Shown here: one piece after another, positions 35,701 to 64,000 of the stretch
Layout: each line of letters opens with the position of its first letter
Numbering within the stretch: the stretch's first letter is position 1
NCBI RefSeq assembly: GCF_032854445.1
Contig: NC_088295.1
Location: forward strand, 10,403,385 to 10,467,384
Reading direction: 5' to 3'
DNA: 64,000 nt
Source of the DNA: Liolophura sinensis
Taxonomy: Eukaryota > Mollusca > Polyplacophora > Chitonida > Chitonidae
Translations under genes and position numbers: made by a program
The notes under the pieces: model-generated
The model's input: the letters and a program-made list of their open reading frames with translations, nothing else
Databases searched by the model: none
Told to the model about the DNA's origin: nothing

Positions 35701-38700
35701 TCCTAAGGTCATTGAAAAGTTGAATTTTAGATGAGTATATCTGCAATACATGAGGGGGTGTGAAAACATGCTATTCATTTACATTGTATTGATGTCATTT
35801 AAACATCACATAAAACGCCTGCAGTATGACAGACAATGAATAATGGAACATGGAAGTGCAAATAAATGAACAGAGAGATTGTAGAATTGCTGCTGTATGG
35901 TGACCTGTGCTGACATACACCCGTATTTATATGCACCTGTATCTTTGTGAGTGACTATTTATGACACTAGGTCACATTGCAGTCCGCCTTAAATCTCTGT
36001 TATTCACCCAGCTCCCTCCGGGAAGAGATCAATCCATACCTTCCATACAGACATTGTGGATATACATGTACCTCCACTAAGCTATATTTATATAGAACCC
36101 AGACATCACATATGATAATCTACACATACATCTTTCTTCTCAATAAACCACTGGCAGTGGAGTATGTTCCTGCCTACTGAAATTAGGTACAAACATATCT
36201 ATATACAATGTAGTGGGAAAGCATGAAAATCTACAACAGACTCATTTTTACCAACCTGACCTCAATGTGACTGGGAGAATGGGAACTCTTAACAAAATTT
36301 ACATTTGTTTCTACTGGATGAGTTACAGAGTACTAATCACTGTTTCCATACATTTCACTGAATCTGTATTATTGTTACTGGTGTTATGTTTTTTCAAAAC
36401 ATTTTTTGACTGCTAATTTCACTGGTGTTGAGCAAAACGTACTGCTCTTGTCACTGTCATTCACAATCTGACTAGCCCCATTGGTCTGCTGTGCCACTAT
36501 TGGTATCACTTGCATACGGCTTGACCTGGATATTCAGCTTTTGTGGATTGCAAAACCATGCCAAATTCTCCACTGGCACTACCATCATTCCATGGATGTC
36601 TGATTCGTGAGAGAAAAACCAGAGCCAAAATCAGTTGTAGTATTGCCCAGTCGCTTTCGGCACACCGGGTACAATTACAAGGATCCATTGCAACTCTCTT
36701 CCCTTCCACAATATTTGCTGTAAAACTGTTAAACTTATATAATTTCAGGGTTCCAACTAAGAGCTGAACAAATGACATGTAGGGATTATTACAGATTAAG
36801 TCCACATCATGGCTTCTGCAAAAGCACACAGTGTGTGTAGTTGTGATTTGTCCACAGGCCTGTGCTTTACAGGGCTTCTGAATACCTAATCCCGACAGAG
36901 CTTCATAGCATGACATTGCCCGCCCAGGCTCTGTGCTAGACGATATAGGCAGTTCAACAGGGTTTGTTCTGTTATTTATTTATTTCCATTGGTGTTTTAC
37001 GCCGACACTCAAGAATACTCCACTTATACGACGGCCGCCAGCATTATGATGGAGGCCTTCCTGCTTACAACCGGAAAGGAAGCTGGGCTTGGACTCACAG
37101 CGATCGCATTGGTGAGAGGCTCCTGGGTCATTGTGTCGTGCTGGCGTGATAATCGCCTCTGCCAGAGAACCCCTTGTGTTTTTTTAAAGTGGAACTGGTT
37201 AACATTTTATTTTTTGGACAATTAAGCCCACTATAATCCATGTAGTTGATAATATGAAGTTTTGTTTTTCTACATGTACATGGGAATGCTTCAAATGAGT
37301 TCGCATAATACCGGTTAACTAGTTATGCTCAAAGAATGAATACATCCACATTCTGAATAACAAATTACTTTGTTACCAGAGACTGACTGAACAAGCACGT
37401 CATGTTCACTTATATTGTAACAGAGCAAGGCAGAAGCCAGAATACAAGAGGTGTCTTTTGTAGCCTATTATCACAGAAACACCCCGTTACATTCACTTAC
37501 TCTTCAAACCATGCCTGCATGATAAGGGTAGTAAACCACCCACTCAGTTGGATGGTGAGATGGGGTAGCATAAGTGCAGCCTTTGGTTTCAATTGAAAAA
37601 CAGGGTGAATGTATAAATAGGGTGCTTTGTACAGGGTACAGTTTAGAATCCAAAACAAAAACAGCACCATCACTTTCAGCTTTTCAGTCAAGATATTTGA
37701 AAAAGTATTTCAATCAGCAAATTGGAACTCTTGAATATTTATTTATAATTTCAGCTGGTGTATATAGTGATGTATTAATGAGTGTTTTCATGTTTCAAAA
37801 AAAATGGAATAGCATTTACTGTTTCTAACTGTTTATGTATTGCCATAAAGGCCCTGTGTAAAGAGCAAACCGCATAATTTGACGGACTTCCTCCACCATA
37901 AGCCCAAGGCTTGTTCACCCTGCATATGTCTTAAATTCCTATTTTCAATAACTAACACTTTTATGCTCAAATGACATGATAAAATATTAAAAGAAATTTT
38001 GTTTCCATTCAGGTATTTTTTGACAAAAAGAGGGAAAATTTGAAAGAAATGAGATGGGAGATACTTAAGTGATTAAAACAAAACAGATCTGCACCAACAC
38101 CCAAAAAAAGCCCCAAAAACCTTCAGCCTATGGGCTGTGAAATCTGTCTATTGCTCTTCTATTTTTATTTTTCTTATGACTAATGACCAATTATCTTCTA
38201 ATACAATTCATTGGTCTTCTCCACCTGCAAAGGGCCTATCAGTTATTTTGTCTGTAAAGAACGACCTGACCCAGCCTCATTATGACATGACATTAAAGAG
38301 AACACATTGCACCAGAATATCATATTATGATATACTGTAAGATTGTAGACATTTTCTCAAATTGTTTTTCTCAACTAAGTCATCACCATTTCTATTTGTT
38401 CGGTTAGGGTGAGCATGAAAACCTTCATTATTTGCACTACTGCCATACGTGGCAACAGATCAAGGCATATCTAGGCCTACATAGACCTACCTGTACAGAG
38501 ATTCCTGTAGCTAACATATAGGACTACAAGTATATGCATGTACAGGTCCATTGCCAACAATTACGACTTGTCCTAACATTCTAGAATAAATTAATTATTT
38601 TAGCTCTCCCTCACGAGGAATGAATCTGAATGATGTTCATAGGCCTACATTTATTCATTACACATCAACCTGTAGGCCTACTACTTTTATTTCAATAACT

Positions 38701-40885: not shown

Positions 40886-43800
40886 ATGATGGAGAAAAAC
40901 ACGTTCACGATTTTGCTGGTAGTTTTGTTTTACGGAGTTTACCTCTGTCATGCCCTGGGTAATATACGTTTACTTACATTTAGTTCGAATTCAGTTTTAT
41001 GTTTATTTTACTTATGTTTTTCTTGACAACTGTGATAAACGTACAAACATCTTCCAGACATTGTCACTGAATGTGCCTTGGGGGCCTAGATAGTACAGGC
41101 ACTTTAAAAAACTCCGTTGGTATCCGTTGGTAAGAACATGGCGCGGCTTTCAAACTCAGACCTATTTTGCACTTACATCCATAGAACAGTCTTCTGTAGC
41201 TCTGGGCTGGTATTTATCAAGCAGCTGAAGACTTAAAGTGATAGACAGCACCTGATTAATGTTTGTGCCCACTGGAAGACTACCATTCAAAAGTGTCTTA
41301 AACTGGCATTAAATATTTTTTAGAATTTTTTTCAACTCAGTGAAACTTGAGTGAGACTTCATCTTGACACAGCCTCAGCAGGTCCCCATTAGAGAAAGCA
41401 AAGTTATGTCACTTTACTCTAGCTCTTTGAGTCTAATCAGTAGTCTGTAGTGGATAAAAGTTTGTGGCAATGAGGGCCCTGTGTGATAAATATAGTTTTC
41501 TCAGAAAGTGGACATACTGGAAGAATGTTTCTTCCACTGCTGGCACGGTTGATGCAGAAAGCCTACTATATCATTTCCAGGGAACTACAGCAACCCTGTT
41601 TAAATAACCTGTTCAAATAACCTTTGACCTTTTGCAGATGCACGGCCCGGGTACTCCTGGCTTAGGTTGTAGCCTCAGGAGAGGTTGTGCTGGTGATTTT
41701 GACCCCTATTAAATGTTTACAAAATTACAATAGGATTGGTGTACAACTAGATTCATGCTCAATTCTGAAACAGATGAAAATAAATGTAAGCACCACTGAG
41801 GCTGATCTAAGCAATCAACTGTCGCTAAATTTTATGCTTCAGTTTTATTGCAGTGGCTTCTAAGGTGAAAGCAGTGCTGACCTAGTTACCGTACACATCA
41901 GAGAAAGCACCTTGGCTGGAACATGGCATTTCAATAATATTTCTGTATTTTTTAAAAGAAAATAGTGCTTTAATCAATCAAATCTGCATAATTCGATATA
42001 AATACTGTTTTTTGTAGCAATCCCTGATTCTGCTGATGAGAGGTTTTCAACATGTTCATTGTGTCATCAGATAGTGGACAAAACATCCTCTACTATACTC
42101 AAGTCAAATGGACGGGTATGTGTTCATAGAAATTATATATTCCTGTGTAATCGTTGACAGCCAGTCAAAACACTGATATAAACATTCACATATACACACA
42201 GGTTCTGTTTCTTAGCTATAGTTGAGAGGTGACTTTCTGTGTGCTCACATTTTTTAAGGTCATGTCTTATGAAAAAAATATTATACAAATTCTTTGAAAA
42301 AAATATGATATGCTGTACATGTGTGACAGCTACGGTGTTGATTAGATGGAGAGGGTAGATCTGAAGTAGAATACACACTTCCGGTTTTGTGGTTATCTGT
42401 TTTTCTTGCTTATAGGAAGAAGTAGGTGTTCAAGCTATGGTACAATTCTGCCAGTTATTGACAAGGCCTTCAGAATTGCAGTCTTGTTCTGAGTTTGTGG
42501 AAAATTTTGGGCTGACAGTGGTAGATTATGTTCTGTCAGGACAGGCAAGTACACGTATATAAATGATAATGACATAGAATCTTTAAAAATACAAAGTAAA
42601 CTGTTTATTGAAATTGTCATGGCGATGTTGAGGATGACCAACTAAATATATAGCAAATATAATAAAATTATATTAAGATAATGATAGAGTAAATATAAAA
42701 TCATATCCTACATGTAGTTTGCATATATTCCAGCTGTGAACTTGTAGCTGTGTTAACATTTTATTGATTGAGGTACTTTTGTTATACACAGGGAACTAAA
42801 CAAGTCTGTGCTAATATTCAAGCCTGCTATGCTGAAAACTTTGTCGCAGAACCACATGTCATAAATGAGGTTGGCATTGAATCAGAGATGCAGCAAAACC
42901 TTCCAGAGACGCAGCAAAATCTCTCAGAGACAGGTGGCTTCAAGGTAGGGGGGGGTTCATTCAATGAGGTTTATCCCTCTTTGATTGTTAAGTGTGATGG
43001 CTGACAATAGTTTGTTCAGTTTTATTATTATGGCATATACTGATAAAAATGCTGAACATGGCGCTCATTTATCACGTAAATATATCTTCAGTGGTGTAGA
43101 CGATGAATTCAACACAAATGGCTGTTGGGATCTTGTATGCTGATATCTGGCTTTAATATACCATCATTCATAACCATACATAGATAGTTTTCTGTACTAT
43201 CACACAAAGATGGGTCAGAATGTTCACCCTGGCATACAGGCTGGTAATCAGTTGCAATTAGTTGTGCTCAGTTGTTACCAGATGTTATCGGTAGTTATCA
43301 GTAGTTATCAGGTCCAAGCTGGAGTGAAAACAAACCTTGGATTACCTTACTATTTATGAAGTATCAGACAATACGCAAATTTACGGTAATTTACCAAAAT
43401 CAAAGTTTTATATCAGGAAGCATTTTTCCACGTAATTCTGCTACATATGCACTAAACACTACTCTTATTTCTTAAACAACAAACTACAGATACAGTATAG
43501 AACATAAAACAATGAAAAAGTACATATTTATTCACATTCCTGCTGCTTAACATAAACATTATGTTGTTGTTATTACATCCAATATGCCACATGTACTCAT
43601 AAACTCAAAAAAGTCCACAAAAGTCCACTTCACACCTACATCAGGTAATTAACTTCACAGTTCTTCTGACAAGTATTGCTTTACAACACGACATCACTGA
43701 TGCTACTTTATTCAGTTACATCGCCTCAACAAATTCAAAGACTCATGAAGTAAACTTGTCCGAACTACATGTCAACGATTATTTTTTGCCTCTCTCCCGT

Positions 43801-46800
43801 TGCATTCAAAACCTTAACTGTCTATTACCAAAAATGCGGAGCGGGACTATCCGCCATCAACAAATGGGAAATTGATATGATACTGCACATTTTTCACAAT
43901 CTAGGTGATTTTCAAGTTCAGTTATTTTTATATCCTCCTCCAACATTGGAAAGAGATCTATTCTCTGATCTACAGATCAGCAACAGTTGGTTTGGCATGA
44001 TGTACCCATTGCGTCAGATTGACAACGACTTTCAGCTGTGTAACTGTTTTGATCAGCTAAACACATGTATCCTTTAAAGTGTCCCATTATTATTTCAGGC
44101 TGATGCCCGCTGTGAGCTGTGCAATTGTTTTGATCAGATAACATGTTTCCTGTGAAGTATTGCTTAATTGTTTTAGGCTGGCACCCACTCTCAGCTTTTT
44201 TTGATCAGCTAATACATGTACATGAGTCCTGTGAAGTATCCGTTATTTAAATATACCTTGTAACACGTAATTGTTTCAGGCTGATGCCCGCTGTGAGCTG
44301 TGCAAGTTTTTTGTCCAGCTTCTAGACAGTAGCCTGGCTGAGGAGAAGACCCTGGCTACCATCAATGGCACCCTCATGGCCATATGCAACTCCCTCACTC
44401 AGCCTCTTCTCAAGTCTGTTGTAAGAAACAAATTATCGCATGTATTATTGTTGTCAGTGAAAAACATATTGGTGCTTGAAAATTTTTGAAATACCTGTCT
44501 GCCCAGGTAATTCTTTGACCTTCAGTCACCACTGCAAAAAATATTTTGAATTATTCTCTGAGAACTATGGGGCGTAGAGAAATAATTTGCACAGTTTTAT
44601 GAATCTTACATCTTGAAAAGTGAAACAACTAAGTCATTTTTCACATCATTTTCATAATAATTGTATGCATAAATTCCACTGAAAAAACTGCTTTAGAGGT
44701 CAAAAAGGTTGAAGATTTACAGTAACACCAAATCTTACTTTCTAAACAGTGATGTTTATATTATAAAACATATTACATAGCCTTTTTTGCGTCACAGTCA
44801 TGACAATGGTTTATGTTCTACATTCTTGGCATTTCATTTATTGCTATTTACAGGTAGATAATTCCATTGCTTCAAAACCTATCGATTTTTATTGTATAAT
44901 TTTGTTTAGATGTTATTTACTGATTATTTCTTGTTGGTAGTGTCTTGCCCTGGACTCACAAGTGATTACACTTTTTGAACAAGGCCTGGATCCCTCAACG
45001 TCTTGTCAGAAGACTAATTTTTGTCCAGGTAAGTATAAAACATACATATAACAAGATTTTCAAACTTTTTATTAAGGATGCTATATGAGAGACTTTGGAC
45101 AAAAAATTCATATTTGCCAATCAATTCGAATTTTTCTTCACTCAGCAAGAATAGCTCAAATCATTGCTTTTCAGTAATTATCAAACTTAAAAAATAATCA
45201 AATTTTTAAAGCAACCATCATTGAATATAAATTTTAGGAACTTTATAATTCATTTTGAACAGTAACAGGGGCAAAAACAAGGCTGATAGTTTGTGAAAGG
45301 TAAGACTGATGTCCACATTCTTTTGCAGCATCCATTCCGGCAGATATCAATGTCTCTGGCATAGAGGGTTTAACATGTGATATGTGTAATATCCTGATTG
45401 AAGACATTGCCATACATGCAAATGTCATGTCAGAGGTGAGTGGATGGAGTGTAGCTGAATGCCACACATGCAAATGTCATGTCAGAGGTGAATGGATGGA
45501 GTGTAGCTGAATGCCACACATGCAAATGTCATGTCAGAGGTGAATGGATGGAGTGTAGTTGAATGCCATGGATGCAAATGTCATGTCAGAGGTGAGTGGA
45601 TGGAGTGTAGCTGAATGCCATGGATGCAAATGTTATGTCAGAGGTGAGTGGATGGAGTGTAGCTGAATGCCATGGATGCAAATGTCATGTCAGAGGTGAG
45701 TGGATGGAGTGTAGCTGAATGCCACACATGCAAATGTCATGTCAGAGGTGAATGGATGGAGTGTAGTTGAATTCCATGGATGCAAATGTCATGTCAGAGG
45801 TGAGTGGATGGAGTGTAGCTGAATGCCATGGATGCAAATGTTATGTCAGAGGTGAGTGGATGGAGTGTAGCTGAATGCCATGGATGCAAATGTCATGTCA
45901 GAGGTGAGTGGATGGAGTGTAGCTGAATGCCACACATGCAAATGTCATGTCAGAGGTGAATGGATGGAGTGTAGTTGAATGCCATGGATGCAAATGTCAT
46001 GTCAGAGGTGAGTGGATGGAGTGTAGCTGAATGCCATGGATGCAAATGTTATGTCAGAGGTGAGTGGATGGAGTGTAGCTGAATGCCATGGATGCAAATG
46101 TCATGTCAGAGGTGAGTGGATGGAGTGTAGCTGAATGCCATGGATGCAAATGTCATTTCAGAGGTGAGTGGATGGAGTGTAGCTGAATGTCATGGATGCA
46201 AATGTCATGTCAGAGTAGACCACACATGCAAATGTCATGTCAGAAGTGAGTGGATGGAGTGTAGCTGAATGCCATGGATGCAAATGTCATGTCAGAGGTG
46301 AGTGGATGGAGTGTAGCTGAATGCTATGGATGCAGATTTCATGCCAGAGGTGAATGGATGGAGTGTAGCTGAATGCCACACATGCAGATTTCATGTCAGA
46401 GGTGAGTGGATGGAGTGTAGTTGAATGCCATTGATGCAAATGTCATGTCAGATGTGCGTGGATGGAGTGTAGCTGATTGCCATGGATGCAAATGTCATGT
46501 CAGAGGTGAGTGGATGGAGTGTAGCTGAATGCCACACATGCAAATGTCATGTCAGAGGTGAGTGGATGGAGTGTAGCTGAATGCCATGGATGCAGATGTC
46601 ATGTCAGAGGTGAGTGGATGGAGTGTAGCTGAATGCCATTGATGCAAATGTCATGTCAGAGGTGAGTGGATGGAGTGTAGCTGAATGCCATGGATGCAGA
46701 TGTCATGTCAGAGGTGAGTTTATGGAGTGTAGCTGAATGCCATGGATGCAGATGTCATGTCAGAGGTGAGTGGATGGAGTGTAGCTGAATGCCATGGATG

Positions 46801-49800
46801 CAGATGTCATGTCAGAGGTGAGTGGATGGAGTGTAGCTGAATGCCATGGATGCAAATGTCATGTCAGAGGTGAGTGGATGGAGTGTAGCTGAATGCCATG
46901 GATGCAAATGCCATGTCAGAGGTGAGTGGATGGAGTGTAGCTGAATGCCACACATGCAGATGTCATGTCAGAGGTGAGTGGATGGAGTGTAGCTGATTGC
47001 CATGGATGCAGATGTCATGTCAGAGGTGAGTGGATGGAGTGTAGCTGAATGCCACACATGCAAATGTCATGTCAGAGGTGAGTGGATGGAGTGTAGCTGA
47101 ATGCCATGGATGCAGATTTCATGCCAGAGGTGAATGGATGGAGTGTAGCTGAATGCCACACATGCAGATTTCATGTCAGAGGTGAGTGGATGGAGTGTAG
47201 TTGAATGCCATGGATGCAAATGTCATGTCAGATGTGCGTGGATGGAGTGTAGCTGAATGCCATGGATGCAAATGTCATGTCAGATGTGCGTGGATGGAGT
47301 GTAGCTGAATGCCATTGATGCAGATGTCATGTCAGAGGTGAGTGGATGGAGTGTAGCTGAATGCCATGGATGCAAATGTCATGTCAGAGGTGAGTGTTGT
47401 GGCTTACTGTGTCATGTAAGTGTGGAATGTGTTTTGTTATGAAGTCCTTTTGAATATTTATGTTGTTTTGGACCTAATGACACTTTGTTTTCTTTTAACA
47501 GGAATTGTCCGAGTTTTGCTTAGCTTTTCAGGTGTGTGACAGTGGTACTGGACAAATGGCAGCTGACACATTTAATACCTTCCATCACAATCCTGGGGTA
47601 TGCGAGCTCAGTATTTAGTAACAATATATATATTTGCATATGCATGTATGTGATAGTTTTGGCATAATATGTGAGGCTACAACAGGTAATCATATTTTAA
47701 GTGCAAGTTTCATTGCCTTCGTGAATGGGGATGTATGTGGAGCCCATTATACACGGGAGCCTGATTCTAAGTGATTGAGTATGCAAAATAATGATGCAAC
47801 TCAACTCAAGTTGCATGCTAGTTGTTACGTGTATGGCAGTTTCATCCAGAGTCATATGTACCTACAACTGGGACAAACTCCACACAACCAGTCGAACTGA
47901 GTTGTGTCTCTTGTGTGTGCTGAGATTTAAACTCAAATTAACCTATATATGTACACACGTGTGGATCTGTCTGTGTTATATGGACATATCTCCCAGACCA
48001 TGGTGTACAGTAGATGTATCATGTTTCTTTGTCTCTGAAGGACTCGCTGGGCTGTGAAATCTGTGAGTTCCTCATCAACATGTTGGACCAGTACATAGCA
48101 AACAACAAGAGTGAAGCTGCCATTAATGCCACCGTCTTCAAGCTGTGCAATGATTTACCTGCAACATTCCAGCCAGTGGTGCGTTGACATTTCATGTTAT
48201 CATACCTGATGGAGTGATTCTTGGATATATGGTGTATAGTATGTTTACATGCCTGTGTATGTGTATCAGATTATCAAACATTGTGTATGAACTGAAATTA
48301 AGGAGAGAGTAAATTTGCAATGTGTACTTCATCAAGAGAGTAAACTTACTATGTGTGCTTCATCAAAAAATGTAAAATTTTTAAAATTATGATGAAATTA
48401 GCTATTAGTAATGTCAAGAATGTAGTAGTGGATGAAGTCACATGTCTGTTTCTTTATTCAAACCCTCAACTGTCAATACCTTTGCAAATTCAATCCCCTT
48501 CCTCCGACTTCAAGTGGCTATGTTGAAGTTACACTCTCTCCTGTAGATGCTGCTGTAGCTATACATCTCCGTGAAGAAGTTGCAGAAACACAATAAGATT
48601 TGGGAACTAGTTATCCATGTACATATACTAGCCTGCAACTGAATGTGGAACAGCGATGTTGTTGTTGTCCAGGAGAGGATGTATGATGTGTGTGTCGTGT
48701 AATAGCTGGAGTTGCCTGTCTATTTGGATGTGGGACTAGAATGTTGTTCTTGTTGTCCATTGTATAGTGCAGTTCAGGAGAGGGTGTATATGTGTGTGTC
48801 CTGTAATTGCTGGAGTTATCTGTCTAACTGGATGTAGGACTAGAATGTTGTTCTTGTTGTCCATTGTATAGTGCAGTTCAGGAGAGGGTGTATATGTGTG
48901 TGTCCTGTAATAGCTGGAGTTATCTGTCTACCTGGATGTGAGACTACAATGTTGTTCTTGTTGTCCATTGTATAGTGCAGTTCAGGAGAGGGTGTATATG
49001 TATGTGTCCTGTAATTGCTGGGGTTATCTGTCTACCTAGATGTGGGACTAGAATGTTGTTCTTGTTTTCCATTGTATAGTGCAGTTCAGAAGAGGGTGTA
49101 TATGTGTGTGTCCTGTAATAGCTGGAGTTATCTGTCTACCTGGATGTGGGACTAGAATGTTGTTCTTGTTGTCCATTGCATAGTGCAGTTCAGGAGAGGG
49201 TGTATATGTGTGTGTCCTGTATTAGCTGGAGTTATCTGTCTACCTGGATGTGGGACTAGAATGTTGTTCTTGTTGTCCATTGTATAGTGCAGTTCAAGAG
49301 AGGGTGTATATGTATGTGTCCTGTAATTGCTGGGGCTATCTGTCTACCTAGATGTGGGACTAGAATGTTGTTCTTGTTGTGCATTGTATAGTGCAGTTCA
49401 GGAGAGGGTGTATATGTGTGTGTCCTGTAATAGCTGGAGTTATCTGTCTACCTGGATGTGGGACTAGAATGTTGTTCTTGTTGTCCATTGTATAGTGCAG
49501 TTCAGGAGAGGGTGTATATGTATGTGTCCTGTAATTGCTGGGGTTATCTGTCTACCTAGATGTGGGACTAGAATGTTGTTCTTGTTGTCCATTGTATAGT
49601 GCAGTTCAGGAGAGGGTGTATATGTGTGTGTCCTGTAATTGCTGGGGTTATCTGTCTACCTGGATGTGGGACTAGAATGTTGTTCTTGTTGTCCATTGTA
49701 TAGTGCAGTTCAGGAGAGGATGTATATGTATGTGTCCTGTAATAGCTGGAGTTATCTGTCTACCTGGATGTGGGACTAGAATGTTGTTCTTGTTGTCCAT

Positions 49801-52800
49801 TGTATAGTGCAGTTCAGGAGAGGGTGTATATGTATGTGTCCTGTAATAGCTGGAGTTATCTGTCTACCTGGATGTGGGACTAGAATGTTGTTTTTTGTCC
49901 ATTGTATAGTGCAATTCAGGAGAGGGTGTATATGTGTGTGTCCTGTAATAGCTGGAGTTATCTGTCTACCTGGATGTGAGACTAGAATGTTGTTCTTGTT
50001 GTCCATTGTATAGTGCAGTTTAGGAGAGGGTGTATATGTATGTGTCCTGTAATAGCTGGAGTTATCTACCTGGATGTGGGACTAGAATGTTGTTCTTGTT
50101 GTCCATTGTATAGTGCAGTTCAAGAGAGGGTGTATATGTATGTGTCCTGTAATAGCTGGGGCTATCTGTCTACCTGGATGTGGGACTAGAATGTTGTTCT
50201 TGTCCATTGTATAGTGCAATTCAGGAGAGGGTGTATATGTATGTGTCCTGTAATAGCTGGAGTTATCTGTCTACCTGGATGTGAGACTAGAATGTTGTTC
50301 TTGTTGTCCATTGTATAGTGCAGTTTAGGAGAGGGTGTATATGTATGTGTCCTGTAATAGCTGGAGTTATCTGTCTACCTGGATGTGGGACTAGAATGTT
50401 GTTCTTGTTGTCCATTGTATAGTGCAGTTCAAGAGAGGGTGTATATGTATGTGTCCTGTAATTGCTGGGGCTATCTGTCTACCTAGATGTGGGACTAGAA
50501 TGTTGTTCTTGTTGTGCATTGTATAGTGCAGTTCAGGAGAGGGTGTATATGTGTGTGTCCTGTAATAGCTGGAGTTATCTGTCTACCTGGATGTGGGACT
50601 AGAATGTTGTTCTTGTTGTCCATTGTATAGTGCAGTTCAAGAGAGGGTGTATATGTATGTGTCCTGTAATAGCTGGGGTTATCTGTCTACCTAGATGTGG
50701 GACTAGAATGTTGTTCTTGTTGTCCATTGTATAGTGCAGTTCAGGAGAGGATGTATATGTGTATGTCCTGTAATTGCTGGAGTTATCTGTCTACCTGGAT
50801 GTGGGACTAGAATGTTGTTCTTGTTGTCCATTGTATAGTGCAGTTCAGGAGAGGGTGTATATGTGTGTGTCCTGTAATAGCTGGAGTTATCTGTCTACCT
50901 GGATGTGGGACTAGAATGTTGTTCTTGTTGTCCATTGTATAGTGCAGTTCAGGAGAGGGTGTATATGTGTGTGTCCTGTAATAGCTGGAGTTATCTGTCT
51001 ACCTGGATGTGGGACTAGAATGTTGTTCTTGTCCATTGTATAGTGCAGTTCAGGAGAGGGTGTATATGTGTGTGTCCTGTAATAGCTGGAGTTATCTGTC
51101 TACCTGGATGTGGGACTAGAATGTTGTTCTTGTTGTCCATTGTATAGTGCAGTTCAAGAGAGGGTGTATATGTGTGTGTCCTGTAATAGCTGGAGTTATC
51201 TGTCTACCTGGATGTGAGACTACAATGTTGTTCTTGTTGTCCATTGTATAGTGCATTTCAAGAGAGGGTGTATATGTGTGTGTCCTGTAATAGCTGGAGT
51301 TATCTGTCTACCTGGATGTGGGACTAGAATGTTGTTCTTGTTGTCCATGGTATAGTGCATTTCAAGAGAGGGTGTATATGTGTGTGTCCTGTAATAGCTG
51401 GAGTTATCTGTCTACCTGGATGTGGGACTAGAATGTTGTTCTTGTTGTCCATTGTATAGTGCATTTCAAGAGAGGGTGTATATGTGTGTGCCCTGTAATA
51501 GCTGGAGTTATCTGTCTACCTGGATGTGGGACTACAATGTTGTTCTTGTTGTCCATTGTATAGTGCAGTTCAAGAGAGTGTATATGTGTGTGTCCTGTAA
51601 TAGCTGGAGTTATCTGTCTACCTAGATGTGGAACTACAATGTTGTTCTTGTCTGTTGTAGTGTTTCAGTCTTGCTCCAGCTGTAGTCTCTGCTTTGGCCC
51701 GAGGCTTGGACCCTGCCACAGCGTGTACTGATATCAAACTATGTACAGGTCAGATGCAACAATGTTATAAAGCCAAAGGTTACCATGTCAATGTGCTCTC
51801 TCTTATCTCAATACAGTTGTATGTTGACCTTTATCAGTATAGTGAAGTAGGCCTATACTATTCATGTTTTTGCTATGCAGTAGCTAGGACTGTCTATTAC
51901 TTTTAATGAAATTGTCCCATAAAACTTCTCTGTTTATTTAAATGACTATGATAGTAACTTTAATGCACCTGTATTGCTGTTGAAAAAGAAAGTAATAACT
52001 TCTACATATCAAACAAAAATCTCTGTAATTAAATTAGCGGAACAATTTTCAAGTACTTTTTTCACAAAATTTATTTCCATTTTATTTCATTGGATATATT
52101 TTGCGCGCTGCCAGGCCAGTCAGAACTGAACCAGCTGATTCCTCAAACTCGGCCACAGCATGATGAAATTGAGGTAAGGCTGCTACATGTAACTCGTCTG
52201 CACAAAACACATGTACAAGTGTAGCTTACATCACACCCCATGCGTGTATGCATCAGGTAACAGGGAGAGCAGTGTTAAGTAAATATTGGGGTGCTACTAC
52301 ATGCATTGAGCTCAGGTTTTGCATGCATGTAGAGCATAAGGACACAAGGGGGATGTTCCTTTGTTGATGCAGTGTGTACATATGAAGTACAGTAACATAC
52401 AAAATTCATGACAGTGTATTGTCTGTTAGAATCCATGTCATGACAGTGTATTGTCTGTTAGAATCCATGTCATGACAGTGTATTGTCTGTTAGAATCCAT
52501 GTCATGACAGTGTATTGTCTGTTAGAATCAATGTCATGACATTGTATTTTATCCTGAAAATCTGGTCATCATATATCAAGAAAATAACCATTTACTTCCT
52601 TTCCATTGTTTATTTTGGATAAACATTGTCTTTTCTTCATTCAGGCTTCTTTGGGCTGTGAGATTTGTGAGTTTCTCATTGACACAGCTGACCAGTATTT
52701 ACAGAACAACAAGAGTGAGGCAGCCATCAATGCAACCCTCTACAAGCTGTGCAATGATCTGCCAGATACATTTCAGTCCTTCGTAAGTCTGCAGTTGTCA

Positions 52801-55800
52801 ATCTGAGGATTAAATCTGAGTGTTAAATATGTAGCCCTTGATAAAGCATGCTTCTGGCAGCAGGCAATGGTTGTGACAGATAATGCCACAGTATGGAGGG
52901 AGGTGCGCACAGTATCTGGCAAAGGAGCTTACTCCACGCTCTCCAGTTTCCTCCACCCTGAAATCTGATCCTCTGATCCTTCAACATCCTCTGTAATCAG
53001 TATGTTGAAACATTCTGAGAGACCTGTGGAGTGCAGAGAAATAATTTGCATAGTTTTATGAAGCATACATCTTTACTGACAAATCATTTTTAGCATCATT
53101 TTTCTAATACTTGCGTGCATAACTTCCACTGAAAAAGTGCTTTGGTGGTGGAAAAGGTTGAGGATTTACAGTAAGTTCCAATCAAAATCATCGTACTCAG
53201 CAAAGACATTTTCTTTTTAAGTACAATATCAATACTATATATACAGTGTACACTGTCACAGTTTTCTACAATTATGCACCTTCCATTATAGATTTTCCTT
53301 TAATAAATGGACAGGCAAGGAAAAAAAAAATAGTTCATTTTGAATCTGAAAGCTAGGGTATTTCGAATTCCAAACATGGCAGAAATCTCAATAATTATGT
53401 TGGATATTTTATATTTCTAGTGTTTTTCCTACGCACCAATGATAGTAAGCCTTCTGTCAAAGGGCTTTGACCCACAGAAAGTCTGTACAGAAATCAAGCT
53501 GTGCACAGGTATGTTTATGTTTATGCCAAATTTATTTTTAACTGTTACATGGAGTGTCAGTTTGAAGAAAACCAACAGTGAGAATCACAACATTCCAAAT
53601 AATTATACCAGTTGAAAGCATCTCATTACGCGTACAGTGTGCCCTGCTGTGATAAAAAAACTTGGTTTACAAGTAATCTCAGGTAACTAGTTTGTTAAAG
53701 GCCTGTGGGCTTGTTGAGTCATAATGGAATTTGTGGGAGAAGTGAACTCCAAATTTGGCATCATGAACTGCCGTAGTGCAGCCTTTATTGTTTGTTCACC
53801 TTCAGCAATATGTTAGCCCCTTATCTCCTGAATGGCTGATGGGTTGATTGCATAATATATCTCTTAATTTATAGCATTCACTTAACCTCTCAGGGGGATG
53901 TAGTTATTTGTTTCAATGTTGCGTTGTAAACAGGAAGTGACGAATCAGCTGAGCACACCGTAAGTCCAGAGCATCAAAGCCAAAAAGATCATGATCAGGT
54001 GAGTAGTTGTCTCCCTTTACTGGTAACAGGTTGTAAGACATGCAGATTATATCTTACATTTATATATGTATATATGTTATATTTGTTTGTTTCTTTTATT
54101 CACATTGGGGCTTGTTTCATACTGGATTATTTTAATTCAACTCATGACTCACAGTTAATAAAATTACTGCTGTAACAACCTTCAAGTTTTCATGTACTAC
54201 TCATCGTCATTTTTTACAGATCTCCTTGGGCTGTGAGATTTGTGAGTTTCTCATTGACACAGCTGACCAGTATTTACAGAACAACAAGAGTGAGGCAGCC
54301 ATCAATGCAACCCTCTACAAGCTGTGCAATGATCTGCCCTCAACATTTCAGCCACTGGTAAGACCAGCCTTCACTGTCATTGTGGTTGGAATGTCAGTAT
54401 AAATCAGGGGTTCAAACCTGCACAATGAACCCCGTGTTTTTATCCAGTCTGCAAAAGTTTCCTGTGTCCTGTATCCACTTAACTTTGCACAAATTATATA
54501 TTACCAATTGTCAGATAATATGTAAATATGATGATTGCTGTCATTATTTGTAATTGATTGATTGGAAAGATGTTGATTACATGTATAACTGAATTCATTC
54601 ATTATTGTTTATTCCTCAGTGCATAGCCTATGTTCCTCAGATAGTGGCAGCTCTGGCTCAAGGCTTAGACCCTCAGAAAGTCTGCACAGAAGTCAAGCTC
54701 TGCACAGGTACAGAAAACAATTAACAGTTGTGTTAATCTGCCAACAAAGTTGAAGTCAGTAACATGGCAAGTCATTTCTTCACATTCCATATATCTTATT
54801 TTATACTTTTACATCATTAAATGCTGTTAGTCATTAAATGTTTCAGTCATCAAATGATAGAGTTAACTAACTTTTCTTTTGTTTCAGGCAATAGTACCTC
54901 CAGCAGTCACAGTCACAACAAGCCTCAGGCTACAGCACAGATCAAGGTAGGTTCAGCTTGTACGTCTTAGTAACTAATTAAGTACCGTGGACTTATAAGA
55001 CAAGAAAAGTCTATGTATATCAAGGTGTATCAGTAACCATGTAGCTAAAGTCCAAAAAAACGAGAAAGGACAGGTACATGGTCAACTGGAAACCCTCTTC
55101 AAATTTGACAGAAAACTGTAGGAACTGTTGTGTTTCAGCTCACTTGTTTTGTCTTGTTTATCATCATGTTGATTAATGATCTCATTTGCCCAATCACATC
55201 AGGGCAACTTTGCTGTGATAATTTTATAAGTAGAAATAAGCTTTTCTGTTTGTATTTATCTGAGAATTCTCTAGACAAATTTTAATTGAGCAACTTTGTA
55301 TGGATTGGCTGTTAAACTGAAGACATTGGTATGTTCAGGAGAATCAGTGCCAGACTAAGACACGTATACAATGTATGTTGCTAGGAATCCTAATTGGATA
55401 AAATCTGTTGGTATGGATCCAAACCATCGCATAAACTACGGTATTTCACCGAAAGTTTAGCATTTTTCAAGTGACACAGTCTAATGAATTCATCCACACT
55501 ATAGTGCCATTTAAGGATATTTTATGGATATTCTATCAAACTTTTTAGGTTATTCTGTGTTTTTGATTTGATCAGGCTTCCTTGGGCTGTGAGATTTGTG
55601 AGTTTCTCATTGACACAGCTGACCAGTATTTACAGAACAACAAGAGTGAGGCAGCCATTAATGCAACCCTCTACAAGCTGTGCAATGATCTGCCCTCAAC
55701 ATTTCAGCCACTGGTAAGACCAGCCTTCACTACCACTATGGTTTGGTTTCATTGGTCAGTGGGATAGTCTGCTTAGTGCTTTAAGTTGTTTATGTTTGAG

Positions 55801-58800
55801 TTGCTAGGCTATGGATTCAAACGTGGCCTTGGACAGAGAAATTGTTCATTTCCCCTCTCACTGTTTTGGATGCTCAAGACACAGTCTAACGATCATTGAA
55901 GAGCACTTGCATTCCACCAGCATGGCACGCATATCTGTACATCAAATGTGGACAAGTTTGTCTGTAGCTTGCCAAAGGCCAGTGGTTTACCCCTGAACTC
56001 GAGGAAAAAAAAGAGTTGGGCATGAATCAGTCAATCAATCAAATATATGCAGTCAGTGAAATTGGAAGTTCAGATCTGCATGTTGAGAAGTTTGTCTTTC
56101 TGCCAGATAATGTGTCAGTCTTGTGCTAATTATAAAATGTCATAAGTCATGAGTGAATATAGTGATTGGTGTTGTTATCCGTTGTTGATTGAAAAAGTAT
56201 TGACGCTACACAAATTCCTAAAGTACTTTTTTTTTTATTCCTCAGTGTATAGCCTATGTTCCTCAGATAGTGGCAGCTCTGGCTAAAGGCTTAGACCCTC
56301 AGAAAGTCTGCACAGAAGTCAAGCTCTGCACAGGTACAGAAAACAGTTAACAGTTAAATCTGATGAACAACAGATCACTCCTTTATTCCTTATTGAAAGT
56401 TTGAAATGCAACAGACTTCCATCACACTACATTTATTATTGCAGATTTAACATGAAGTTAAAGTAAAGGCAAAGAAAACACTAACATAAAGTATATGTCA
56501 GATAAAAGATCAAACGTGCTGTTCATAAAAATTGATTGATTTATTTTTGGGGGAATTTTTTTCAACCTCCGGGTCACTACAGAACTCCTGGACAGTGGTC
56601 TTTTGATGGTCTTTCATCACTGTATGCAGGGTCCAAAATAGTCTTAGACAATCTGTAGCCAATACTGAACTTGAACCACCCTGCTGAAGTTACAACATGA
56701 TAAGTTATGATAAGTTGATACACTTTTTATGTGTACTTTTTTGTCATAGTAGCTAGAAAATAGTATTATGTCATGTTTTGTGTTTCAGGGAATGGTACTT
56801 CTACCAGCAGAACTCAGAACAAACTTCAGTCCAAAGTGCAGATCAAGGTATGTCTTTTTAGTGAAGAACCAGGCTATTAAGGCTGAGAAAGTCATAAAAA
56901 AAATAACAAAAATGCTCAGTGGCATGTTAGCAGTAGATTGTGTACTCAGTGGCATGTTAGCAATAGTTTGTATACTCAGTGGCATGTTAGCAGTAGTTTG
57001 TGTACTCAGTGGCATGTTAGCAGTAGTTTGTGTACTCAGTGGCATGTTAGCAGTAGTTTGTGTACTCGGTGGCATGTTAGCAGTAGTTTGTGAACACAGT
57101 GGCATGTTAGCAGTAGTTTGTGTATTTGTACAATTAATGTAAGGTAATGTGTGTTAACGTGTAAGGTGTTAAATCATTATTGGAATAAATCTGTGAAATT
57201 CTTAGTACTCACATTAATATTCAGATATATGTCATAATCGATGATGAAGTGGAGCCCTTGCTGTCTCGGACAGTGAAAGCACTAGCTCAGTGTGATTGTC
57301 CAGCCCTTGCTGTCTCGGACAGTGAAAGCACTAGCTCAGTGTGATTGTCCGGCCCTTGCTGTCTCAGACAGTGAAAGCACTAGCTCACTGTGATTGTCCA
57401 GCCCTTGCTGTCTCAGACAGTGAAAACACTAGCTCAGTCTGATTGCCCGGCCCTTGCTGTCTCAGACAGTGAAAGCACTAGCTCAGTGTGATTGTCCAGC
57501 CCTTGACCATTGAGGTCAGTTGTTCATATCCAGTTTTCGTTGCTTTGCCTGTGGTTTTAGATTGGAAGGTTCGTCAGGTAGCTGACAAAAGGCAGTGGTT
57601 TACTCTGTTTATTCTGGTTTTCTCCACTCTGAATCTTGACTGTGTCATATAGGTGAAAACTTCTTTTTCATCAAAACATCAATTAATAGAATAAATAAAA
57701 TGTAGCTGCTAAAGCAGCGATGCTGGGGTTCAAGCCAGTATTGCCGGCCTATGCGGCGTCACTTTGGGTTACCCTAATGATGCCCATATATAGATACATA
57801 ACCAACTTAATTAGAAAGCCTACATTCTTCGTAGTCTTTAGTGCATTGTAAGTACACTGTATATCATTTGTATGTAGATGTACCAAACTAAGTAAATTGA
57901 CCTTTGGGCCATATTTGAGGTAGTGCATGTCCTCTCTTTTTTTTTTAACACAGCTCTGTGATTTTCAGCATACATATATAGCGCTTTTCAGTGATTTTCA
58001 GCTATACGGCTGTAACAGTTTTCTGTCACGTGACCTCTAAATGGTGGAAATTGTGCTTTTTCACAGTTTGATCACAACGTTGCAACTCCCGCATTTATTA
58101 AGACACTTCAACAATTTTCCGCTCACATATGATACACATACATCCCTTTGCACTCAGCCATTTTCAGCTTTACAACTGTAGTTTTGTTTCGCGCGACCTC
58201 AAAATGTAGGGGGAAAATTGCACTTTTTCATACTTAAATTGTTTAAATTCAAAAAACTGACAAATTCGGTAAGCTGGAATCGAACCCTGACATGACTGAC
58301 TGGCGTGAGCGATATAAGCCCGGTGCGATCTGCCAAAATGTCAATTTTCTAACGTCAATCATCATGGGGCATTGTTAGCGTACAGTAAAGAAAACATGGT
58401 TTGCGCAAAACAAAGCTAACTTTACACACATGCACAACATACACTGACTGGCCATGCAAAAAGTTTAGGTGTACATGTATATTTCCATGTGTGTTAAAAA
58501 TAGAGAACTTGTAATCTTGTCTATCTTGTATTCAAAATTTTCATCTAACAAAGTGTCTGTTTGCATTTTAAAATCTTATCATTTGATCTTATCCTTGTTG
58601 CCTTATTTTAACTTTATTACGCAGATCATTCAGGATTGACTCGTGTACATAACTCTATCCAGTTTATCTATAAGCACATTTCACCACTAGCTTGGCAGTA
58701 AACACAGTTTTGAAGATGATGTAAATAAAACACCAATGAGATAACAACAAATATTTCTTCTTTTGCCTTTCAGGTTACCAGTTTTGAATGTGACATGTGT

Positions 58801-61800
58801 GAATTCGTTGTTGCCAATGCTGATGCTTACCTGAAGAACAAGAATTTTACACCTGCTGAAGCCAATAATACTCTTTATGCCCTCTGTGACAATATTCCTG
58901 CCTCATTCAGGAGTTACGTAAGTGTAGTTTAAAACACCTGTCACTGTATCTGAGCTGAATAATATCCAATTAAGAATGCTAGAAATGAAACTCTTTGATT
59001 TTATGATCAGATGTGATCAGTGTTCTCTTTCATGAAATGAATGACTTCTGGCATTATTTCGAGTATAACATTGATAACATTGATCACATAAATTACCCTA
59101 ATGAAATTGTACACATCATATTTGCATGATTTACTAAGTGTAGTTTACATGTTAATTAAAATACTAATTTTAATAATTCTTATTTAATGCATGTATGTAC
59201 ATGTACTCAGTTAGACACAACTATATGGTGTTTCCTCGAGGCTCTGCCTGGTTTCCTCCGACCATAATGCTGGCCGCCGTCATACAAGCTGGAAGTAAAG
59301 TATTAGTCCCAGATATAAGTGAGACAATCTTGAGTATGGCCTGAAACACCAATCAAATAAATAAATAAATAAATAAATATGATGAGCGACGATAAATATA
59401 AAGAGGAGACCTCCGTGGCTCCGTTGGTTAGCACAGCGTAATGAGCCAGGAGCCTCTCACCAATGTGGTTGCTGTGAGTTCAAGTCCAGCTCATGATGGC
59501 TTCCTTTCTCGTATGTGGGAAGGTCTACCAGCAAGCTGCAGATGGTCGTGGGTTTCCCCGGGCTCTGCCCGGTTTCCTCCTACCATAATGCTGGCGGCTG
59601 TCATATAAGTGAAATATTTTTCAGTATGGCGTAAAACACCAATCAAATAAATAAATAAATAAATATAAAGGGTAAAGTCAGTTGTGAGGATCGAGGTGTT
59701 TTAATACTTTGTGCTAGTTTCACAGGTGTAATGCTATGCCTGGTGTAACTACATGTACATGCACCTTAATGGCAGTGTAGCTACATATAAACATCACTAC
59801 ACTTCATTACAGTGCTATTCCATTGTTCCTAAGCTGGTGACAGTGCTGGTCAATGGAGTGGATCCAGTCAAGGCGTGTGAAGAAATCAAGTTGTGCTCAG
59901 GTAAATTCCCTTTACTTCAGGAATGTGGTCAAGCCATTTTATACTGTCCAACATGTTTTGACGATACCAAAGATCTGGGAAAGATCTCGTTGTGCCGATG
60001 TTATATGATCATATCGAATACACTGATGTTACAACGATGAGAAAGGATAGCCACTACTCTTGTTTTTTTTTTTTTATAACTACCTTCCGTGAACCAAAAT
60101 GTGGAAACCAACTTGCATTGTGATAGTCAGTTCTTGCTGTTTCTCAAGAATTGCGACATAACTTTAAAGAGGCTATACTGGAGATTTGGGGCAAAAAAAT
60201 CGATATTCCCTAATGAAATCAGTTTTTCTATATTACCTATATACCTGGAATAGCTCATTATCACCTTAATATAAAATATGATACATGTACCTGTACCATT
60301 TATAGTGCTACATTAATTGTAAAGTTTGAAAAATGCATTATAAATTTTGTTAACTTTATTACTGATTTTGAATGTTGAGATATGCACAGACAAGGTTGAA
60401 GTTATATAAAATGTAATTATTTTGACTATTCTGAAATAATAGCAAAAATTTGATATGATTTGTGCTTCTCTGTTTTTTGGCCAAAAATCTCTGGTATAGC
60501 CATTTTAGTGCATAAAACTTGTCATTGCAAATTATGACAGTTTCAAGTATATTTACCTGAAGATGATATGTGGGGTCAGTTTAGAGTTGATATGTCTCTG
60601 ATTGTGTGATCATGGGGTCTCCATTCTCTGCTCATTAGGAAACCTTCAAAAAAAAGTTCAGAGGAGGAAAATGTCAAGACGATTGCCTCTAAAACAACAG
60701 GTGGGAAAATCTACTGTAGGGTGTTCTGCATCAAACCAACTCATTGGAGGAATTATGCACTGTAAACATTATTTACTGAACTGCTTAAGCATAAAGATAT
60801 TATAAACTGTCTGTATACTTCTTGTTCAAACTATACAAAAACGATTTTATTCTCCTGATAAGTCATATCATTGCTGATTTGTTGTGATAACTGTGAAGTA
60901 CCTGAAGGTTAGAGGTGTCTCAACCTAGTTGTGCCTCCACAACATGGTGAGACAGGTGATTGATATATTAATGTCAACAAACATACGAAACATTTTTGAC
61001 AAGTTACATTATACAGTAGGACTTATTTTACTGTTCGTTATTGCACCTGTACTTAGCTGTCTGTACTCTACGTTAATTCTATAGCTGATCTTGTCTGTAC
61101 TTATATCCTATAGCTCTCCTCTCCTCTCCTATGTTTTTGCAGGCAGCAAGTCTGGAGTGCGAACTGTGCGAGTTTGTGGTAATGGAGGTTGATACTTACC
61201 TGAAGAACAGAAACTCAACACCTGCAGAAGTAAACAACACTGTCTATCAGCTCTGTCAGGATCTACCCACAACATTCCAGAGTTTTGTGAGTATAATGAC
61301 AAGCAACCAGTATTTAGTTCTCTTTGACATGGGCTCTTTACATGTCTTCCACTAGGCTCTTCCTGAAGACAGTTTAGATGTCTATCCCTTGACCAGTGAG
61401 CTCGCACTTATCAGTCTAGCTTAAATTGTTAGTTTTTGGCCAGGATTAGTAGGTGCCTAATAGGACAGGAATTTTAGCTAATCTGTGGACATTTCTCTCT
61501 CCCCATTAAGCTGACACCTGTTAGTGAAAGAGTTTTGAATATGGCATAAAACACAAGTGGGAAACTCCTAAAACTCTCTCCCACCGGTAACAAAATGATC
61601 TGTACGCTTTTGTTCTTTCCTTTATTAGGTCAGAATAATAGTTATACATGTGGTTGTAAAGGGTATAGAGCACATGTGTATACAAGCACTGCAATGTCAC
61701 AGAAGAAAACAATGTGTTCCTACAATGAGTAGCACCGTCTGCCTCCAGTCCCCCAGTATTGGCAGTTTTTGAAATATGTTCAGTTTTGTTATGATATGCT

Positions 61801-62304: not shown

Positions 62305-62696
62305 GTACATATCATAGATTTACATGTTAAGTGATATTTTCACAATAGAATTGTTGATCTCCGAAGTAGACACCTAATTGTGAGCATCACGTGTCTGTTG
62401 TCTAAAATTGTCAAGACACAATGGGAGTTCCCGGTACATTTGGTTGACTGGTTGATGTTACAGAGAACATGCATTATCCTGCATCAGACAAAATACTATG
62501 TGCTTTTCATTGGACAGCAGCGGTCACGTGGGGCGCAGATGTATTCTCGAATCCTGCAGACGATGTCAGATGTGTCTGCTGAGTAGGTTATCTCCGTTTG
62601 CTGGGTTGTGAAGACAGTGGTCACTTCGCCGAAGCAATTCGTCTATACATCGGTCTTCTGCACTGATTTGAAGGGTCTTTGCAGGAGAAATTCATT

Positions 62697-64000
62697 ACAT
62701 GGTTACTCAGTGATAGGATACACAAATATATGGTGTCAGTAATCCTCAGATTGGGTGAGGCGTCCCCTTATATGGTTACTCAGTGACAGAATACGCAAAT
62801 GTATGGTGTCAATAATCCTCAGATTGGGTGAGGCGTCCCCTTATATGGTTACTCAGTGACAGAATACGCAAATGTATGGTGTCAATAATCCTCAGATTGG
62901 GTGAGGCGTCCCCTTATATGGTCACTCAGTGATAGAATATGCAAACATATGGTGTCAATAATCCTCATATTGGGCGAAGCATCCCCTTATATGGTTACTG
63001 AATGATAGAATACGCAATTGTATGGTGTCAATAATCCTCATATTGGGCGAAGCATCACTATATATGGTTACTCAGTGACAGAATACGTAAATGTATGGTG
63101 TCAATAATCCTCAAATTGGGTGAGGCGTCCCCTTATATGGTTACTCAGTGACAGAATACGCAAATGTATGGTGTCAATAATCCTCATATTGGGCAAAGCA
63201 TCGCCATATATGGTCACTCAGTGACAGAATACGCAAATGTATGGTGTCAATAATCCTCAGATTGGGTGAGGCGTCCCCTTATATGGTCACTCAGTGATAG
63301 AATATGCAAACATATGGTGTCAATAATCCTCATATTGGGCGAAGCATCCCCTTATATGGTTACTGAATGATAGAATACGCAATTTTATGGTGTCAATAAT
63401 CCTCATATTGGGCGAAGCATCACTATATATGGTTACTCAGTGACAGAATACGTAAATGTATGGTGTCAATAATCCTCAGATTGGGTGAGGCGTCCCCTTA
63501 TATGGTCACTCAGTGATAGAATATGCAAACATATGGTGTCAATAATCCTCATATTGGGCAAGGCGTCCCCTTATATGTTTACTAAGCGATAGAATATGCA
63601 AACATATGGTGTCAATAATCCTCATATTGGGCAAGGCATCCCCTTATATGTTTACTAAGTGATAGAATATGCAAATATATGGTGTCAATATTCCTCATAT
63701 TGGGCGAGGCGTCCCCTTATATGGTTACTCAGTGACAGAATACGCAAATGTATGGTGTCAATAATCCTCAGATTGGGTGAGGCGTCCCCTTATATGGTTA
63801 CTCAGTGACAGAATACGCAAATGTATGGTGTCAATAATCCTCAGATTGGGTGAGGCGTCCCCTTATATGGTCACTCAGTGATAGAATATGCAAACATATG
63901 GTGTCAATAATCCTCATATTGGGCGAAGCATCCCCTTATATGGTTACTGAATGATAGAATACGCAATTTTATGGTGTCAATAATCCTCATATTGGGCGAA
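62697..64000 (+). repeat. 73-bp minisatellite, continues past the window
   Basis: About 18 units, each with GGTTACTCAGTGACAGAATA, TGGTGTCAATAATCCTCA and a CCCCTTATAT end. Two unit types alternate (GATTGGGTGAGGCGTC and TATTGGGCGAAGCATC). A GGTCACTCAGTGATAG variant occurs at about 62921, 63286, 63505 and 63870, spaced 5, 3 and 5 units apart, so multi-unit blocks have been copied. Confidence 0.95.

Follow-up and report, generated by a model that had tools for sequence, protein, structure and literature searches.

A minisatellite with 38 copies of a 5' splice site at an exon-intron junction of a chiton prosaposin gene, and similar arrays at exon ends of unrelated genes

Introduction

Which 5' splice site (donor) is used at an exon end that is followed by dozens of near-copies of itself, and does the choice matter to the gene? 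The question is raised by a prosaposin gene of the chiton Liolophura sinensis, which lies in the window analysed here, a stretch of 64,000 nucleotides (contig C1, 10403385-10467384; coordinates are window positions unless a contig is named). A 52-bp minisatellite starts within exon 7 of this gene, and intron 7 opens with the true donor followed by 37 copied, or decoy, donors. The original prediction, made from the letters of the window, held that the choice among the donors could set the amount of functional prosaposin and that array length could tune it. We find the same anatomy at exon ends of unrelated genes. The prosaposin array is very probably a passive, tolerated junction minisatellite of the kind called a mirage in lancelets, with decoys that are largely ignored.

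The array at the end of exon 7

In our 20-exon model the host gene encodes a multi-domain prosaposin whose first 487 residues hold three stretches each of SapB_1 and SapB_2 (Pfam). The features at the junction, all on the forward strand, are listed here; a slash within a motif marks the splice site, and array limits come from Tandem Repeats Finder (TRF).

45329..45435, +: exon 7, 107 nt, phase 1 to 0, an open frame between exons 6 and 9
45408..47396, +: junction minisatellite with 38 donors, first unit inside exon 7 (TRF, unit table, column statistics)
45436..45441, +: true 5' splice site GTGAGT, donor 1 of 38, alone stop-free when joined to exon 8
45488..47395, +: 37 decoy donors (first 45488, last 47390), comprising 27 GAG/GTGAGT, 6 GAG/GTGAAT, 3 GAT/GTGCGT and 1 GAA/GTGAGT
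45508..45510, +: TGA in unit 2, met from donors 3-38 (36 of 38 donors)
46187..46268, +: unit 16, 82 bp, a truncated extra copy without a donor (TRF rows with periods 82 and 134)
47502..47597, +: exon 8 with its 3' splice site, 96 nt; TGA at 47537 when donor 2 is used

TRF reports a single array at 45408-47396 with period 52, 37.7 copies and a score of 2465, a periodicity far beyond chance. Each unit consists of 28 bp derived from exon 7 and 24 bp derived from the intron, and the array overlaps exon 7 by 28 bp, which bears out the prediction of a unit that starts inside exon 7 and spans the exon end and donor. The predicted figure of about 38 decoys has to be corrected, as the 38 donor positions include the true one and leave 37 decoys. 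The donors are near-identical, as had been claimed: 28 of the 38 are exactly AGAG/GTGAGT, six are GAG/GTGAAT, three GAT/GTGCGT and one GAA/GTGAGT. Units 2 and 3, the nearest decoys, carry the weaker GTGAAT. Computed pairing with U1 is -10.3 kcal/mol for GAG/GTGAGT, -7.0 for GAG/GTGAAT, -0.6 for GAT/GTGCGT and -5.2 for GAA/GTGAGT, and for the other 19 donors of the modelled 20 exons the values lie between -4.3 and -11.7 kcal/mol. Copies share a mean pairwise identity of 93%, and unit 1 is on average 94% identical to the others. A 213-bp probe from the array matched the genome once, at the array itself, a search in which a single candidate was scored and which does not by itself prove rarity.

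A join from donor 1 to exon 8 stays in frame and meets no stop in the model. Donor 2 leads to the stop at 47537 within exon 8, and every longer extension meets the TGA at 45508 in the second unit; both had been predicted correctly. All 37 decoys thus lead to a premature stop, and the claim that the first donor must be used agrees with its being the sole donor of the 38 that does not.

Column statistics over the 37 full units (52 columns, nine of them in the donor) give a within-array test in this one species. Non-consensus copies average 1.44 per column in the donor and 1.63 in the 43 columns elsewhere, and the donor window ranks 32 of 52 circular windows ordered by fewest changes. The exon-derived part is more variable (2.32) than the intron-derived part (0.75). 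By this test the donor columns are neither conserved nor eroded; the selective conservation of alternative donors that would mark a regulated switch was not found.

Exons 7 and 8 are placed by phase, frame and splice signals, and their status as exons is that of a gene model. Exon 7 has the acceptor ...ttcttttgcag and the donor GAG/gtgagt, and is flanked by introns of 300 nt (intron 6) and 2,066 nt (intron 7). Their joint peptide had no significant match in Pfam, and a search of the genome found no second copy.

In the rest of the model, exon 3 ends in a GC donor, CAG/GCAAGT, at 42545. Exons 12/13, 15/16 and 18/19 of the saposin domain (52645-56333) encode very similar peptides, a likeness that suggests a recent duplication of domains within the gene.

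Sister arrays in other genes

The genome scanned for sister arrays comprises 609,464,459 bases in 632 contigs. A first scan, for three copies of AGGTGAGT spaced 46-66 bp, gave 23 loci after grouping, prosaposin included, among the matches listed, which extend to C1:51.9 Mb; 20 of the other 22 were examined, C1:49776747 and C1:51876031 being left out. A second scan, which used AGGTAAGT as the donor word, found 18 loci on C1 (one of them L041), all of which were examined, the array start falling outside the examined piece at L052, L057 and L065. An open frame with recognisable homology continues into the first donor at 11 of these 38 loci (12 of 39 once prosaposin is counted), nine of the 20 for AGGTGAGT and two of the 18 for AGGTAAGT:

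L001: ankyrin (Pfam Ank_2, 2e-11)
L003: SNF2 domain (7e-6; PDB 1.8e-18)
L004: HEAT/Mot1 (Pfam below cut-off; PDB 3e-31 with the next exon)
L005: DUF3535 (6.6e-6; 26.1 bits against a cut-off of 26.2)
L010: OGDH (5.5e-65 when joined to the next exon)
L014: MRP1/ABCC (1.5e-25 when joined to the next exon)
L015: choline transporter (homology of the peptide open through the first donor)
L016: BMS1 (RIBIOP_C, 4e-11)
L018: EGF gene (EGF_CA, 9e-11)
L053: RAPTOR, RPTOR (1.8e-15; AGGTAAGT locus)
L054: Branch-family enzyme (1.5e-6; AGGTAAGT locus)

Loci L003 to L005 fall within 24 kb of sequence on the same strand, an arrangement that fits a single gene. In the PDB entries it is called a helicase-like protein, and we take the gene, L005 included, to be BTAF1/Mot1, in part from position. 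A search of six peptides against NCBIfam matched OGDH and no other. Six further donor loci (L008, L020, L051, L058, L060 and L062) look like exons and were not verified.

At each of the 11 loci we aligned the last 36 nt of the exon and the first 20 nt of the intron to the array beyond, with 300 shuffles each. At all 11 the exon end is itself one copy of the unit: 41-56 nt aligned, of which 41-54 were identical, with scores of 70-106 against at most 34 in the shuffles. The alignments cross the donor and reach 21-36 nt into the exon. At L016 and L054 the array start given by TRF lies just past the first donor. The exon would be the source and the array the copy, because the exon encodes a conserved peptide. 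Ten arrays, prosaposin included, in 51.9 of 609 Mb suggest, as a rough estimate, about 100 such arrays genome-wide for one donor word. From these comparisons the prosaposin array looks like one of several across unrelated genes and not like a gene-specific switch.

The first donor and protein continuity

The next exon was found for four of the six sister loci for which it was sought; none was found within 4.5 kb for L003 or within 4.0 kb for L015. In all four genes a join from the first donor to the next exon yields a peptide with a gap-free alignment to a solved relative: MPLE/AGIPDPP in BTAF1 (L004, against a Mot1/BTAF1 relative, E = 3e-31), GMPH-R-GRLNV in OGDH (5.5e-65), NMVQ/TSVSMKR in MRP1 (1.5e-25) and GYVQ/ARLKKHRW in BMS1 (3.2e-63). 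The first donor should work in BMS1 and BTAF1, because no second genomic place was found for either junction peptide among the candidates scored.

The first donor is not the strongest in any of the four. Decoys that pair with U1 as well as it does or better number 13 of 22 in BTAF1 (L004), 14 of 28 in OGDH, 5 of 6 in ABCC and 12 of 18 in BMS1; the ABCC first donor is GTTAGT, at -7.7, while its decoys have a median of -11.7. Provided that the conserved proteins are made, donor position, not strength, must decide in these genes. A stop, in the array or in the first 90 nt of the next exon, results from 21 of 22 decoys in BTAF1 and from every decoy in OGDH (28/28), ABCC (6/6) and BMS1 (18/18).

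Relation to known junction minisatellites

Minisatellite-like duplications of exon-intron boundaries have been described in lancelets under the name of mirages, on both sides of introns, and are reported not to disturb regular splicing (PMC3087553, PMC3902484). The genes named in these reports are Adh3, the globins BflGb6 and BflGb9, and troponin C, with similar repeats in PGBD5; reported units measure 10-72 bp in Adh3 and 150-160 bp in the globins (PMC3087553). The chiton arrays fit the anatomical features of mirages as judged from their sequence. In prosaposin the repeats run head to tail at minisatellite size (37.7 copies of a 52-bp unit), the unit spans the exon-intron boundary with 28 bp inside modelled exon 7, and the copies carry the splice signal, 28 of 38 in identical form. 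That the copies outside the exon would stay in the intron, as in mirages, gains indirect support from the conserved proteins that read on intact across the first donor in four genes. The assembly shows the prosaposin array once, at one length.

The host is a chiton rather than a lancelet, and the 38 copies compare with six and three units reported for two BflGb6 haplotypes and with a triplication in PGBD5. About ten genes are involved in this one genome, several of them core cellular genes, unlike the lancelet cases as reported. In genes of human segmental duplications, minisatellite expansion at exon borders likewise alters introns, but the arrays described there are short (mean four units of 30 bp), sit in recent paralogues and are tied to new introns (PMC2812944). 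Our search of open-licence papers found no mollusc junction minisatellite; in earthworm metallothionein genes the minisatellites lie inside intron 1, and no junction array is seen in the available part of that report (PMC12783039). The prosaposin array thus adds a long member to a known kind, from a phylum on which this literature yielded no report.

How the array could be tolerated

The probable history begins with a tandem duplication across the exon 7 donor, covering 28 bp of exon end and 24 bp of intron start, and the duplicated stretch would then have been amplified to 38 copies of which all but the first are intronic. For the exon 7 acceptor the spliceosome would take as partner the donor that lies closest across the exon; this is donor 1, and the other 37 would be largely ignored. 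When a decoy is used on rare occasions, a stop would follow and the mRNA would presumably decay. The array would then be tolerated, not maintained, as one of a genome-wide class, since a junction duplication may persist because the exon-proximal site stays unharmed and exon definition picks it. The splice choice in RNA, the neutrality, the mRNA decay and the order of duplication are steps that we infer.

Published work on donor competition, as reported by Carranza, Shenasa and Hertel in 2022 (PMC9225289), gives this account its footing. By the classical rule the donor nearer the downstream acceptor is favoured, and this is said to hold for short introns; where the flanking introns are long, the donor that is closest across the exon prevails, exon definition taking over at introns of 200-250 nt. 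Introns 6 and 7 of prosaposin both exceed that threshold, and the donor of exon 7 is strong. In a minigene with 365-nt introns and two equal CAG/guaagu donors 52 nt apart, the upstream donor was used exclusively. Prosaposin shares the donor spacing of 52 nt, flanking introns longer than 250 nt and an internal exon with this construct. The minigene had two artificial donors in human cells, whereas the chiton gene has 38 natural ones, and unlike the equal donors of the minigene the true donor of ABCC is weaker than five of its six decoys.

Several points weigh against reading the array as passive. That donor 1 is the one used in prosaposin is itself something that we infer, and exons 7 and 8, having no homologue, cannot themselves demonstrate conservation across the junction. 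The precedent for exon definition is human and concerns two donors as against 38 here; the same source counts a preference for the downstream donor in about 60% of human alternative-donor events overall, and reports that larger minigene exons are skipped when donors are weakened (PMC9225289). Among the sister loci, 27 of the 38 have no verifiable exon (three of these lack the array start), and at some of the 11 that do, homology ends before the donor, by 12 residues at L005 and by 13 at L054.

Alternative explanations

The regulatory reading put forward in the original prediction, in which leakage into the decoys would yield unproductive prosaposin mRNA in a fraction set by array length, draws on the 27 of 37 decoys that share the sequence of the true donor and on the stop that awaits every one of them; the amphioxus mirages are, moreover, reported to vary in length, with somatic instability at Adh3 (PMC3087553). 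Regulation through donor choice is nevertheless unlikely, and we regard this reading of the array as very improbable. The same arrangement stands at exon ends of unrelated genes, the donor columns show no conservation, the lancelet cases are reported to leave splicing undisturbed (PMC3087553, PMC3902484), and under exon definition the first site is the one expected to be used, as the exclusive choice of the upstream donor in the minigene illustrates (PMC9225289). It is likewise improbable that exon 7 or 8 has been mis-modelled and that the array is an intronic minisatellite with GTGAGT by chance. The exon 7-8 peptide does lack a Pfam match and a paralogue, and the later domains are linked by a single exon of 59 or 65 nt. 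Skipping both exons would, on the model phases, join phase 1 to phase 0 and break the frame, which exons 7 and 8 together or exon 7 alone restore; both exons have good splice signals, and the 11 sister arrays show the same anatomy at exon ends supported by homology.

Tandem arrays of short repeats can in general be mis-sized in assembly. We give an artefact almost no weight here, because the assembly was built from PacBio HiFi reads reported with a mean of 8,347 bp at 14x (PMC11068029), longer than the 2-kb array, and because the copies bear distinct variants; junction arrays also recur in other genes of the assembly. Two further ideas were set aside. Recursive splicing from unit to unit through AGAG/GT would call on the preceding atgcaaatgtcatgtcag, in which no clear pyrimidine tract is visible by eye, and intron gain by duplication of AGGT does not suit an exon 8 that starts 106 bp past the last base of the array, outside it.

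Beyond the passive junction minisatellite that we favour lies a bolder idea: that junctions are hot spots of minisatellite birth, with preferential seeding at hundreds of exon ends, a near-absolute first-donor rule, and individual length variation leaking into unproductive splicing in some genes, prosaposin included. We consider it doubtful. Word counts at the level of units do not show enrichment of donor words in arrays. These matches (three copies 46-66 bp apart) count units, not loci, and number 1012 for AGGTGAGT (24,391 single copies), 389 for TGAGTGGA (18,804), 748 for GGATGTGA (21,838) and 466 for AGTGTAGG (15,505); for AGGTAAGT the number was 390, and for the reversed word 421. There is overlap between the TGAGTGGA control and GGTGAGTGGA donors, and the GGATGTGA places, among the matches listed, are three loci of one dispersed 52-bp satellite. 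In a random 64 kb (8 x 8 kb) we found four arrays of period 20-150 with at least five copies (six rows of TRF output, of which three describe a single array), or about 60 per Mb. Preferential formation at junctions was not adopted as an explanation, the random sample holding only four arrays and chance placement with tolerance sufficing as a possibility.

The 52-bp satellite (GGATGTGACATCA...) occurs on both strands at C1:2737548, C1:2765604-2768983 and C1:5133724-5136069, and is thus a tandem repeat of dispersed occurrence, whereas each junction array is confined to a single locus.

Acceptor-side arrays and other repeats

A second minisatellite of the prosaposin gene approaches an exon from the other side:

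48670..51651, +: 104-bp minisatellite in intron 9, 28.8 copies (TRF), ending 9 bp before exon 10

Its similarity extends through TTGTTCTTGT at the end of the intron, and 28 copies carry the acceptor-like ATAG/TGCA. Similarity into exon 10 is not significant, 679 of 2000 shuffles scoring as well; the array abuts the 3' splice site and does not provably span it.

In a genome scan for acceptor words, 270 matches had three copies of TTTTCAGG; the reversed word gave 96. Among the 16 array ends examined, one was verified as an acceptor-side junction array: at L037 the array closes with TTTTTCAG/GCTGTGGATGTTGTG, where a PSMD2 exon begins, so that the acceptors are copied and the last one is real. The end at L034 resembles an exon start and has no Pfam match, and the other 14 showed no verifiable exon.

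In the random sample, a 3.2-kb array at L046 (4786-7966 of the piece; C5, about 12.005-12.008 Mb) has a 53-bp unit with an acceptor-like TTTACCTTCCTGCAG/GTATAAAG, and is possibly another junction array. At the far end of the window, a 73-bp minisatellite of at least 17.9 copies (62695-63999) runs to the last position. Stretches at 36960-37170 and 59240-59660 resemble what we take to be a common molluscan short interspersed element (SINE).

Implications

Lancelets are not the only animals with junction minisatellites, and in this mollusc both the annotation of genes and the alignment of short reads will run into such arrays. The arrays amount to natural experiments within one genome, in which a true donor faces copies of equal or greater strength, up to dozens of them, that lie tens of bases downstream. 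Together they form a series in decoy number, strength and spacing, and reads across the junctions would gauge how strict the choice of donor by exon definition is.

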